Source of the DNA: Sutcliffiella horikoshii
GTDB lineage: Bacteria; Bacillota; Bacilli; Bacillales; Bacillaceae_I
Direction: 5' to 3'
Assembly: GCF_002157855.1 (NCBI RefSeq)
Contig: NZ_CP020880.1
Coordinates: forward strand, 3,658,001-3,722,000
DNA: 64,000 nt
Below, piece by piece: positions 14,902 to 17,050 of this stretch; positions within the stretch are counted from its first letter, which is position 1, and each line of letters opens with the position of its first letter. Under the pieces are notes generated by a model. It searched no databases and was not told the DNA's origin. It saw nothing but the letters and a program-made list of their open reading frames with translations. The translations under genes were made by a program, and so were the position numbers.

Positions 14902-15243
14902 CACGTCAGAACATCCTTTCTTTCACATGTATTTATAGTATGCTAATTTTAATTAAATATCAGATATGATTAGTCCGAAAAGAACATTTTACCATAAAGG
15001 GTGATGAATAGCTTTTAATGAGCCCTTTTCGTAGAGGAGTTTACATTTACGGGGGTACTTAGTAAAGAAGTATCAAAATTGATTTTTTAGTAGGAGAAAA
15101 TCGACAAAAATAATGTTTTACTTTTTGAATAAAAGGTGGCAAAATACCCATATTTACTATTCAAAACCCGCTATTCAAGTCCTCAATTCAGCTTTTATAA
15201 ACATTTTATTCCTAAAAGCATTTTCGTAAAATAATTATATATA

Positions 15244-15287
15244 TTCGACAACAATCTGCAACATTCCATAATTAGTTATTTTATAAT
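15244..15287 (+). promoter_or_regulatory. Putative Spo0A-activated promoter of sinI
   Basis: TTCGACA at 15244-15250 is a perfect Spo0A box. A near match, ATCGACA, is at 15100-15106. TATAAT at 15282-15287 gives a -10 element with no good -35, as expected of an activated promoter whose box sits just upstream of the -35 position. In B. subtilis, Spo0A~P activates sinI directly. The assignment here is inference from motif and context. Confidence 0.6.
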
Positions 15288-15349
15288 AAATTTGGGGAAT
15301 AGGAAGGACAATGGTAGCAATACCAAAGTTGTATATCGAATAATTCGAA

Positions 15350-15464
15350 ACAACAGTCAAAGGCAAACTTGCTGAAAAGCAAGGACGCAAAGTCTACAGA
15401 TCTAAGATTGTGTAAAAGATAAACAAAAATCCTTTTACTAATTAAGATGGCTGGGCTGCCTGAA
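15350..15464 (+). ncRNA. Cyclic di-GMP-I (GEMM-I) riboswitch
   Basis: The conserved core is visible in order: AAAGGCAAACTTGCTGAAAA, then AGCAAGGACGCAAAG, then after a variable arm ATGGCTGGGCTGCC. TTGCT and AGCAA close a GAAA tetraloop, and GGC...GCC closes the second arm, as in the c-di-GMP-I class. The aptamer ends about 15 nt before the AGGAGGG ribosome site of sinI. An 11-nt direct repeat, AATACCAAAGT, flanks it at 15319-15329 and 15464-15474; the second copy overlaps a small hairpin beside the ribosome site, which could be the expression platform. Confidence 0.85.
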
Positions 15465-15494
15465 ATACCAAAGTATTTTAGGAGGGAAAAAAGG

Positions 15495-15641
15495 ATGGAA
15501 AACGTAGCAGTTGAAATGACAGAAAATTTGGATAAGGAGTGGGTAGATCTAATTAATAATGCACTAGAAATGGGTATTTCCTCTGCAGAAATTAGAGATT
15601 TCTTACATAATTATCGCAATCATTCATCTTTTAAGCTCTAA
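15495..15641 (+). CDS. sinI: SinI-family antirepressor
   Basis: This 48-residue protein matches the SinI dimerisation module in LDKEWVDLINNALEMGISSAEIRDFL. SinI binds SinR and frees biofilm genes from repression. I start it at ATG 15495, eight bases after GGAGGG. The in-frame ATG at 15447 lies inside the riboswitch aptamer and is rejected. It precedes sinR as in B. subtilis but has its own c-di-GMP riboswitch and Spo0A-type promoter elements. Confidence 0.88.
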   Translation: MENVAVEMTENLDKEWVDLINNALEMGISSAEIRDFLHNYRNHSSFKL

Positions 15642-15676
15642 TTTTGCGAGTTTTTACGTATTTTCGTTCTAAATAT

Positions 15677-15705
15677 CTAACAAACCCTTCGTTATATGCT
15701 ATAAT
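15677..15705 (+). promoter_or_regulatory. Putative sigma-A promoter of sinR
   Basis: CTAACA and TATAAT are separated by 17 bp, 25 bp upstream of the sinR start. A GTTCT half-site like a SinR operator half lies just before it at 15666-15670. This fits the separate constitutive sinR promoter known in B. subtilis. Confidence 0.55.
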
Positions 15706-15729
15706 AAGCATGATAGGAAGGTGAAAGCC

Positions 15730-16065
15730 ATGATTGGTGAACGAATTAAAAAATATAGAGAACAACGAAAAATGTCCATGTCAGAACTAGCAGAACGCGC
15801 CGGCGTGGCCAAATCATACCTAAGCTCAATTGAACGCAACCTACAATCCAATCCATCCATTCAATTTCTTGAAAAAGTATCCTCCGTCCTAGGTGTGACC
15901 GTAAATACCCTTCTACATGACGAATATGAAGACCAAACGAAAGAAAACCTTGATCGAGAATGGGCCACGCTTGTTAGAGAGGCGATGGATTCGGGTGTTA
16001 CAAAGGATCAGTTTAAAGAATTCTTAGAGTTTAACAAGTGGAAAATAGATCAAGAAAGAAAATGA
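15730..16065 (+). CDS. sinR: SinR-type biofilm repressor
   Basis: This 111-residue protein has the same length and plan as B. subtilis SinR. The N-terminal XRE helix-turn-helix includes MSELAERAGVAKSYLSSIER, with the recognition helix followed by NLQSNPSIQFLEKV. The C-terminal SinI-binding module is LDREWATLVREAMDSGVTKDQFKEFLEFNKW. It represses matrix and biofilm genes and is antagonised by SinI. The start is ATG 15730 after AGGAAGGTG; a GTG nine bases upstream overlaps the ribosome site. Confidence 0.92.
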   Translation: MIGERIKKYREQRKMSMSELAERAGVAKSYLSSIERNLQSNPSIQFLEKVSSVLGVTVNTLLHDEYEDQTKENLDREWATLVREAMDSGVTKDQFKEFLEFNKWKIDQERK

Positions 16066-16085
16066 GTCAAATATTATAAAAAACG

Positions 16086-16118
16086 GCGCCCCTTGCTTGA
16101 TTTGCTAGGGCGCTTTTA
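16086..16118. terminator. Bidirectional terminator between sinR and the zinc-ribbon gene
   Basis: GCGCCC pairs with GGGCGC, flanked by A-rich sequence on the left and a T-run on the right. It serves sinR on the plus strand and the convergent small gene on the minus strand. Confidence 0.8.
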
Positions 16119-16322
16119 TATTGTAGTATTAATAGTACTTTCAGTCACTTTTAAAGTTATCTTCTTATATCTACTTGATTTATGTAAAGATTGGTAGCCA
16201 ATCTTTACATATGCTCCCTTACAAACAGTAATGTTCCTTAAACAAGAAGGACATAGCCATTGATAATCAGAACAACTACTATAGGATGACTGGTTACAAG
16301 ACGAACATACTTTCATATACAT
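16116..16322 (-). CDS. Small CxxC zinc-ribbon protein of unknown function
   Basis: This 68-residue protein has two CxxC pairs, at Cys6/Cys9 and Cys24/Cys27, with an extra Cys17, fitting a zinc ribbon. The remainder is basic and Ser/Thr rich. The start is ATG 16322 after GGAAGGG. I do not recognise the family. A near-perfect SinR-type operator lies 20 bp upstream, so it may be a direct SinR or paralogue target. Coding status rests on the ribosome site, the Cys pattern and the terminator. Confidence 0.6.
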   Translation of the reverse strand: MYMKVCSSCNQSSYSSCSDYQWLCPSCLRNITVCKGAYVKIGYQSLHKSSRYKKITLKVTESTINTTI

Positions 16323-16357: not shown

Positions 16358-16544
16358 ATAATATTTATAGTATAACTTTTTTCACTCTATTAATAAAGTT
16401 CATTTTTTTTTGTATTTTCTTAATATAGAACGAAAATAGGTTGTTTACTCTGATTTCCTCTTAAAAACTTACTTTTTCGTTTTTTATAAAGTTCCTAATG
16501 TGCTATATAATGAACTTACGTCATATGTTATTAAGGGGACGAGT

Positions 16545-16919
16545 ATGCTTGGTGAGCGCTTGAAGAGCTTAAGGAAAAGAAAGGGCTATTCATTGAGTGA
16601 ACTCTCGGAACTGGCTGGTGTGTCGAAGTCTTATTTGAGTTATTTGGAGAGAAATATCCAGACCAATCCTTCTCTGCAATTTTTAAATAAGATAGCCGTT
16701 ACGCTTGAGACAGACTTGGAATTCTTGTTGAACGGAGTATCGGAGGACGATATGCCGGATGTACAGGTGCTGGATGAGGAATGGAAACGGTTGGTGCAAC
16801 GGGCGATTTTGGAGGGAATGAGCAAGGAAGACTTTGTTCACTTTAAGGAGTATATGGAATTTCAGAAGTGGCAGGGTGCTAAAAAGACAAGTAGCAAGAA
16901 GGAGGACGAAGAGGCTTGA
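16545..16919 (+). CDS. Second SinR/SlrR-type regulator
   Basis: This 124-residue SinR paralogue has the helix-turn-helix LSELSELAGVSKSYLSYLER followed by NIQTNPSLQFLNKI, and a C-terminal SinI-like interaction module, LDEEWKRLVQRAILEGMSKEDF. The start is ATG 16545 after AAGGGG, with TATAAT at 16506-16511. It could be the SlrR equivalent, forming mixed dimers with SinR, or a second SinR with its own partner. The tiny SinI-type gene overlapping its stop favours a dedicated pair. Confidence 0.85.
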   Translation: MLGERLKSLRKRKGYSLSELSELAGVSKSYLSYLERNIQTNPSLQFLNKIAVTLETDLEFLLNGVSEDDMPDVQVLDEEWKRLVQRAILEGMSKEDFVHFKEYMEFQKWQGAKKTSSKKEDEEA

Positions 16920-17050
16920 ACAAAGAGGTAGATTTGGAGTGGGTAGAGCTGTTGTCATTGGCCAGAGCTTATGGAATTTCTATCGAAGAGGTAAAAGCTT
17001 TCCTTCAACAAACAAGTGAACCGAACAAGGAAGTCTTGGTCGTAAAGTGA
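16916..17050 (+). CDS. Second SinI-like antirepressor (44 aa, TTG start)
   Basis: A frame from TTG 16916 encodes 44 residues with the SinI signature VDLEWVELLSLARAYGISIE followed by EVKAFL. The TTG overlaps the TGA of the upstream SinR paralogue (CTTGA), and AAGGAGG lies about nine bases before it, so translation is coupled. It lacks a DNA-binding domain. The order regulator-then-antirepressor is the reverse of the sinI-sinR pair 1.2 kb to the left. It is easily missed because of its length. Confidence 0.8.
   Translation: MNKEVDLEWVELLSLARAYGISIEEVKAFLQQTSEPNKEVLVVK

Follow-up and report, generated by a model that had tools for sequence, protein, structure and literature searches.

In Bacillus subtilis, SinI binds SinR and relieves the repression of biofilm genes, and transcription of sinI is controlled by Spo0A, according to PMC3163267. 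The sinI locus studied here, which lies in a window of 64,000 nucleotides (the whole stretch of DNA that was analysed) from a genome of the genus Sutcliffiella, raises the question of whether the same small gene also answers to c-di-GMP through an aptamer in its leader, and in which direction. We consider it probable that this leader is a c-di-GMP-I riboswitch through which the messenger switches translation of sinI on. An RNA would in this way bring c-di-GMP and the Spo0A phosphorelay, both of them classic controls of sessile life, together at a single protein of 48 residues.

The sinI locus and its promoter

The gene was assigned to the SinI antirepressors by a PF08671 score over the cut-off and by its position ahead of sinR (Table 1). 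One flank of the locus holds an alpha/beta-hydrolase gene followed by rnr, smpB and the tmRNA, the names rnr and smpB being those that we presume from the translations, and the other flank holds what we take to be secG and eno. Downstream of sinI-sinR lie a second sinR-like gene and then a second small SinI-like gene (window 16500-17050; PF08671 score of the small gene, 37.7 bits), and an Rfam search at the gathering score found no riboswitch at this second pair.

Read 5' to 3', the sinI leader presents a Spo0A-type box and a -10 element, then the first of two copies of a direct repeat and a hairpin; after these come the aptamer, the other repeat copy within a further hairpin, and the Shine-Dalgarno (SD) sequence. 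The original prediction had claimed a perfect Spo0A box with a -10 element upstream of the gene, and both are in place and unchanged in 16 of 16 leaders of the genus, as judged by the consensus sequences of Spo0A boxes and -10 elements. A good -35 element is absent, as might fit an activated promoter, and the transcript would start at about 15294. By itself, the motif TTCGACA is not rare (11 occurrences in the window against 10.2 expected); a perfect Spo0A-type box at a distance of up to 250 nt is over-represented among leaders of the order, with 24 of 76 against 1.5 expected. The conserved 0A box near the promoter is a predicted Spo0A site, which makes sinI a candidate for Spo0A control. Another promoter suggested by a simple scan (TCGACA/CATAAT) was dropped, the conserved TATAAT at 15282 being the better fit, and an upstream mini-ORF (ATG GTA GCA ...) was discarded because its start codon varies across the genus alignment.

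Table 1. Features of the sinI leader and the adjoining genes, in window coordinates.
Feature	Position	Strand	Basis or remark
Spo0A-type box TTCGACA	15244..15250	+	sequence; identical in 16/16 genus leaders
-10 element TATAAT	15282..15287	+	identical in 16/16 genus leaders
Direct repeat AATACCAAAGT (11 nt), upstream copy	15319..15329	+	AATAC and most of AAAGTT conserved in genus
Hairpin GUUGU...ACAAC adjoining P1	15328..15354	+	MFE fold
c-di-GMP-I aptamer	15352..15463	+	cmscan, RF01051, 66.2 bits
P1 5' strand CAG	15354..15356	+	pairs with CUG 15460-15462; assigned from sequence
Switching strand CCUGA (ligand-contact C, P1 3' strand and anti-SD strand)	15459..15463	+	
SD-sequestering hairpin, 10 bp, CCUGAAAUAC-CAAA-GUAUUUUAGG	15459..15482	+	-10.6 kcal/mol
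Direct repeat AATACCAAAGT, downstream copy, within SD hairpin	15464..15474	+	sequence
SD of sinI, AGGAGGG	15480..15486	+	sequence
sinI (SinR antagonist, 48 aa)	ATG 15495..15641	+	PF08671 SinI, 41.2 bits (cut-off 31.4)
Promoter-like site upstream of sinR	15677-15705		simple consensus scan
sinR	15730..16065	+	HTH_3, 62.5 bits; SinI-type domain, 47.3 bits

The aptamer and the hairpin at the ribosome site

A c-di-GMP-I aptamer about 15 nt ahead of the ribosome site had been claimed, with a covariance search named as a check and a score below the family threshold as grounds for giving the claim up. That search returned a full-length match to RF01051 (positions 1-87, E 9.6e-11) with nearly twice the gathering score of 35, so that this ground for rejection falls away, and the distance from the aptamer end to the SD was measured as 16 nt. 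The aptamer is present at sinI in 16 of 16 Sutcliffiella genomes searched. The positions that we take to be G20, presumably the specificity base, and C92, presumably the ligand-contact C in Vc2 numbering, are G15363 and C15459, and both columns are invariant in 46 aligned sinI aptamers. Helix P1 has only 3 bp in the window; at least three contiguous P1 pairs, in the best of four registers, can form in 67 of 87 distinct sinI leaders as against 6 of 18 distinct controls. The hairpin adjoining P1 is kept in part across the genus, some members having mismatches (alignment read by eye). The genome has a second c-di-GMP-I aptamer (L002, 1501-1645), which precedes a small ORF beginning MKTVRNLQYFWHN, with look-alikes in L025 and L028; downstream of it, AACCUCC could pair with the SD GGAGGU.

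The aptamer is an established family; what sets this leader apart from other c-di-GMP-I (GEMM-I) riboswitches (RF01051 and RF03167), with which it shares that family, is an expression platform in which the 3' strand of P1 enters an SD hairpin, on an antirepressor of biofilm genes. In the unconstrained in silico fold, the first three SD bases are unpaired with a probability of just 0-0.02. A fragment that begins at the A after CCUG folds at only -1.4 kcal/mol, against -10.6 kcal/mol for the SD hairpin, and when P1 and P2 are forced in silico, all seven SD bases become unpaired at 0.81 or above. Forcing both helices costs 15 kcal/mol in the ligand-free fold (from -52.5 to -37.5 kcal/mol), and therefore a co-transcriptional, kinetic switch must be assumed. 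The original prediction had read a direct repeat together with a hairpin as a sign of translational control. Its hairpin holds up on anatomy, energetics and comparison, while the repeat as such is not the switching element: this is the 3' end of the aptamer, CCUGA, which P1 and the SD hairpin have in common. The upstream copy of the repeat is kept as AATACNAAAGTT in nearly all leaders of the genus, its local hairpin is not, and the hairpin around this copy (15312-15325) was rejected on that account.

From the aptamer, the hairpin, their overlap, their conservation and the pairing-preserving changes described below, all of which were computed here, we infer ligand binding, the direction of the response, Spo0A binding and the output on matrix genes. 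P1 and the SD hairpin are mutually exclusive, and the leader is therefore read as a translational ON switch. In the absence of ligand, C92 and the P1 3' strand would pair with UUUUAGG on the SD side and hide the ribosome site. When c-di-GMP is bound, C92 would touch the ligand and CUG(A) would pair with (U)CAG to form P1, upon which the SD hairpin would lose its GC clamp and the SD would be exposed. The ON direction would follow from this anatomy, with ligand and P1 together removing the anti-SD strand, and the ligand-contact base itself would be an anti-SD base, which makes for a simple model of such a switch. More SinI would be made, bind SinR and release the matrix genes. Since transcription starts at a promoter with a Spo0A-type box, the leader would combine the phosphorelay and the second messenger in an AND-like gate. 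The genome has six GGDEF matches and can probably make c-di-GMP, and its one TasA-family match is a plausible output.

Comparative evidence and alternative readings

Within the genus, 16 leaders are almost identical from GATGGCTGGG through AGGAGGG, save for the hairpin loop and one neighbouring base; the platform hardly varies and therefore gives no covariation at this level. Across the order, 59 distinct canonical hairpins were compared, which are canonical by choice, as they were selected by the SD-side strand alone and 34 of 105 loci were not matched by the pattern. The stem has ten pairs, each present in 55-59 of the 59, and the loops, of 3-11 nt, vary in sequence. Most changes in the stem are one-sided, an A to G opposite U, and keep the pairing. 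The best single case is L331, where the putative switching strand reads CCAAU (CUGA to CAAU), its P1 partner AUUG and its SD-side partner AUUGG, so that both predicted alternative helices are changed together. Both sides of P1 are also changed, with SD pairing kept, in L080 (UUUAG/CUAAA) and in L056/L140 (UCAA/UUGA); together with L331, these predicted pairings are the pattern expected of two mutually exclusive helices.

Measured against dinucleotide shuffles, the hairpin energy is better at the 5% level or beyond in 57 of 62 distinct canonical segments and in 5 of 29 non-canonical platforms. The sinI platform motif occurs in 71 of 108 sinI loci (for the first of the two sets described below, among the matches listed) and in 0 of 20 controls, the latter being the first 20 c-di-GMP-I aptamers listed for the order; one of them, L303, was flagged as SinI-like by a loose script and its frame has stops. 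The share of leaders with C93/CC-SD pairing, 94 of 105 at sinI (69/75 and 25/30) against 9 of 20 controls and 86% of shuffled sequences, was dropped as evidence because controls and shuffled middles pass too, and the hairpin energy against shuffles was used in its place. The counts of C93/CC-SD pairing, hairpin energy, stem pairs and P1 omit L047, L072 and L109, the shuffle test also L333 (no SD) and the P1 count also L338. Two loci of the second set, L314 and L321, show T at the place of C92, perhaps through an error of register. For the canonical majority of platforms, the window included, the proposed mechanism is well supported.

The same anatomy bears on the possibility that the leader is an OFF switch, in which ligand binding by the aptamer makes the SD hairpin more stable or reduces sinI translation in some other way. 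Part of the hairpin (AAUAC/GUAUU) can persist alongside P1, with a probability of 0.61 for the pair C15468-G15473, and some hindrance may remain. However, the hairpin uses the same CCUGA as P1 and the ligand, both CCUGA partners are changed together in L331, and a lowering of SinI by c-di-GMP would presumably oppose sessile life; we therefore regard an OFF switch as improbable. Control by transcriptional attenuation, with a terminator or mRNA decay at work and the SD hairpin secondary, draws on the behaviour of other aptamers of this class, since by a crude count a T-run lies within 75 nt in 18 of 20 control c-di-GMP-I aptamers and in 41 of 108 sinI loci (set 1 among the matches listed). Against it, a simple consensus scan of 15100-16150 placed its single terminator-like site on the - strand, inside the aptamer, and none on the + strand, and the hairpin in the window contains the SD and has no U-run behind it, all of which leaves attenuation very unlikely here.

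A degenerate aptamer, or one that senses another dinucleotide such as 3',3'-cGAMP, might be suspected from the decayed versions that seem to be present in the B. subtilis and B. pumilus groups. The RF01051 score of the window and the G and C at the invariant G20 and C92 places speak against either possibility, and we give this reading a similarly slight chance. The translational ON switch thus remains our preferred reading of the leader.

Distribution, earlier reports and apparent remnants of the proposed switch

The original prediction had set the placement of the aptamer on sinI against B. subtilis, where it knew of no such riboswitch. SinI was searched for over 397 genomes of the order, the upstream DNA was fetched, and an upstream c-di-GMP aptamer was found at 108 of 153 sinI-like loci, in 61 of 93 genera and 32 of 38 families (two sampled sets, set 1 among the matches listed; genus and family labels entered by hand). 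The placement is widespread in the order and not peculiar to this genome. At the copy examined, the aptamer was not found in 45 of 153 loci and 32 of 93 genera (set 1 again among the matches listed).

Set 1 comprises 97 loci (L044-L140), hand-picked among the best matches listed to the SinI of the window with a preference for short frames; four come from the family of the window and two of these from its genus. Among these matches listed, 78 of 97 carry the aptamer (16/17, 18/20, 16/20, 13/20 and 15/20), of class I, of the GGC subclass (RF03167) and, once, of class II (L109; RF01786, 72.8 bits against 53.5). In this set, L071 is actually a SinR C-terminus, and L072 was counted as positive although its partial aptamer lies more than 300 nt before sinI. 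The set is biased to SinI proteins like that of the window, and the fairer figure is that of set 2, where 30 of 56 loci have the aptamer by R1, a model built from 46 sinI aptamers. Set 2 (L305-L360) draws on 58 genomes, mostly of genera previously untested, with a single short SinI-like frame from each, and omits G065 and G179, whose listed frames were all long and SinR-like; L346 (12.8 bits) was not scored as a match, and the genera g21, g51, g79 and g115 occur in both sets.

A search of the named genomes with the DNA pattern of the SD hairpin alone gave at least 119 stretches, and a SinI-like ORF lies directly downstream in 119 of the 119 matches listed (112 called by script and seven by eye from printed frames). 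R1 finds an aptamer in 108 of these 119 matches listed (71/80 and 37/39), and in 105 of the 108 the R1 hit stops no more than 8 nt from where the hairpin starts. The model is silent in the other 11 of the matches listed, nine of the B. pumilus group as well as L159 and L152, the fetched stretch of L152 stopping just upstream of the hairpin. The genera among the matches listed include Metabacillus, Peribacillus, Mesobacillus, Rossellomorea, Gracilibacillus, Oceanobacillus, Sediminibacillus, Heyndrickxia, Neobacillus and Cytobacillus.

Several loci show individual features. One genome, G318, has two sinI-like genes, one with the class II aptamer (L109, 473-556) and one with a class I aptamer (L087, 544-627). 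At L072 (~600-884), a match to the Bacillaceae-1 RNA RF01690 (737-803) lies between the 5' part of the aptamer and its apparent 3' end, and at L047 (G001) some 150-200 extra bases seem to be inserted in the P3 region, with platform and sinI looking intact. The aptamer of Rossellomorea marisflavi Bac144 (L219, 2074-2302) looks interrupted; its R1 match stops 114 nt before the sinI hairpin, and the 3' half fits poorly.

The link to sinI is not wholly unreported: a text line and a row of Table 4 in a 2015 study of Bacillus methanolicus MGA3 name a putative (c-di-GMP)-sinI riboswitch (PMC4342826). As here, a c-di-GMP riboswitch is predicted ahead of sinI; that line and row deal with a single genome and are silent on expression platform, direction, any Spo0A link, wider conservation and relics. 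In the open-access literature searched, which lacks most subscription papers, we came across no further mention of a c-di-GMP riboswitch at sinI, and no account of order-wide conservation, an SD-hairpin mechanism, a class II case or relics. The aptamer family is known, and the wider regulatory claim looks new. For B. thuringiensis 407, the account of CdgF overproduction in PMC7793685 states that sinI is up at high c-di-GMP, with reference to deposited, unpublished array data. This rise would be consistent with the ON direction if an aptamer precedes that sinI as well.

B. subtilis shares with the window the antagonism of SinI and SinR and the control by Spo0A, as set out in PMC3163267, whereas B. 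subtilis-like leaders have just the SD hairpin and an apparent remnant of the aptamer. Such leaders (L260-L264) read TCATGGCCGGACTGGCTGAAATACATAAACAAGTATTTTAGGAGG or nearly so, and their SinI ends in RSHTVNPF or close to it. We take these loci to belong to relatives of B. subtilis from the genus label and from the SinI sequence, set beside that of B. subtilis. The 3' part of their leader can be aligned to the end of the aptamer and the SD hairpin in L054, L061 and L064 of the same family; at the C92 position there is a G, and the first two SD bases are still concealed by the fold. Rfam searches with E up to 10 found no c-di-GMP match at 12 B. subtilis- and B. pumilus-like loci, model R1 found no aptamer at L260-L269, L148 and L154, and RF01051 had no match in 14 control genomes, B. 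subtilis included. In the B. pumilus group, the SD hairpin is kept and the upstream RNA is different or decayed. From these alignments, both groups appear to have lost the aptamer and kept the platform.

On balance, we lean towards the view that the gating of SinI translation by c-di-GMP is old and common wiring for entry into biofilm life in this order of Bacilli, that the sinI leader of B. subtilis and its group, like that of the B. pumilus group, is a fossil riboswitch with a hairpin that may limit SinI translation to this day, and that the gating was re-invented elsewhere, once with class II. B. subtilis, the source of the SinI/SinR model, would then be an exception, which on evolutionary grounds raises the question of whether translation there is still restrained by the sinI leader. 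In the B. pumilus group, four loci (L148, L154, L181 and L197) have a match to the glycine-GGAnGA riboswitch of 87-95 bits, below the gathering score of 110, about 3 kb from sinI.
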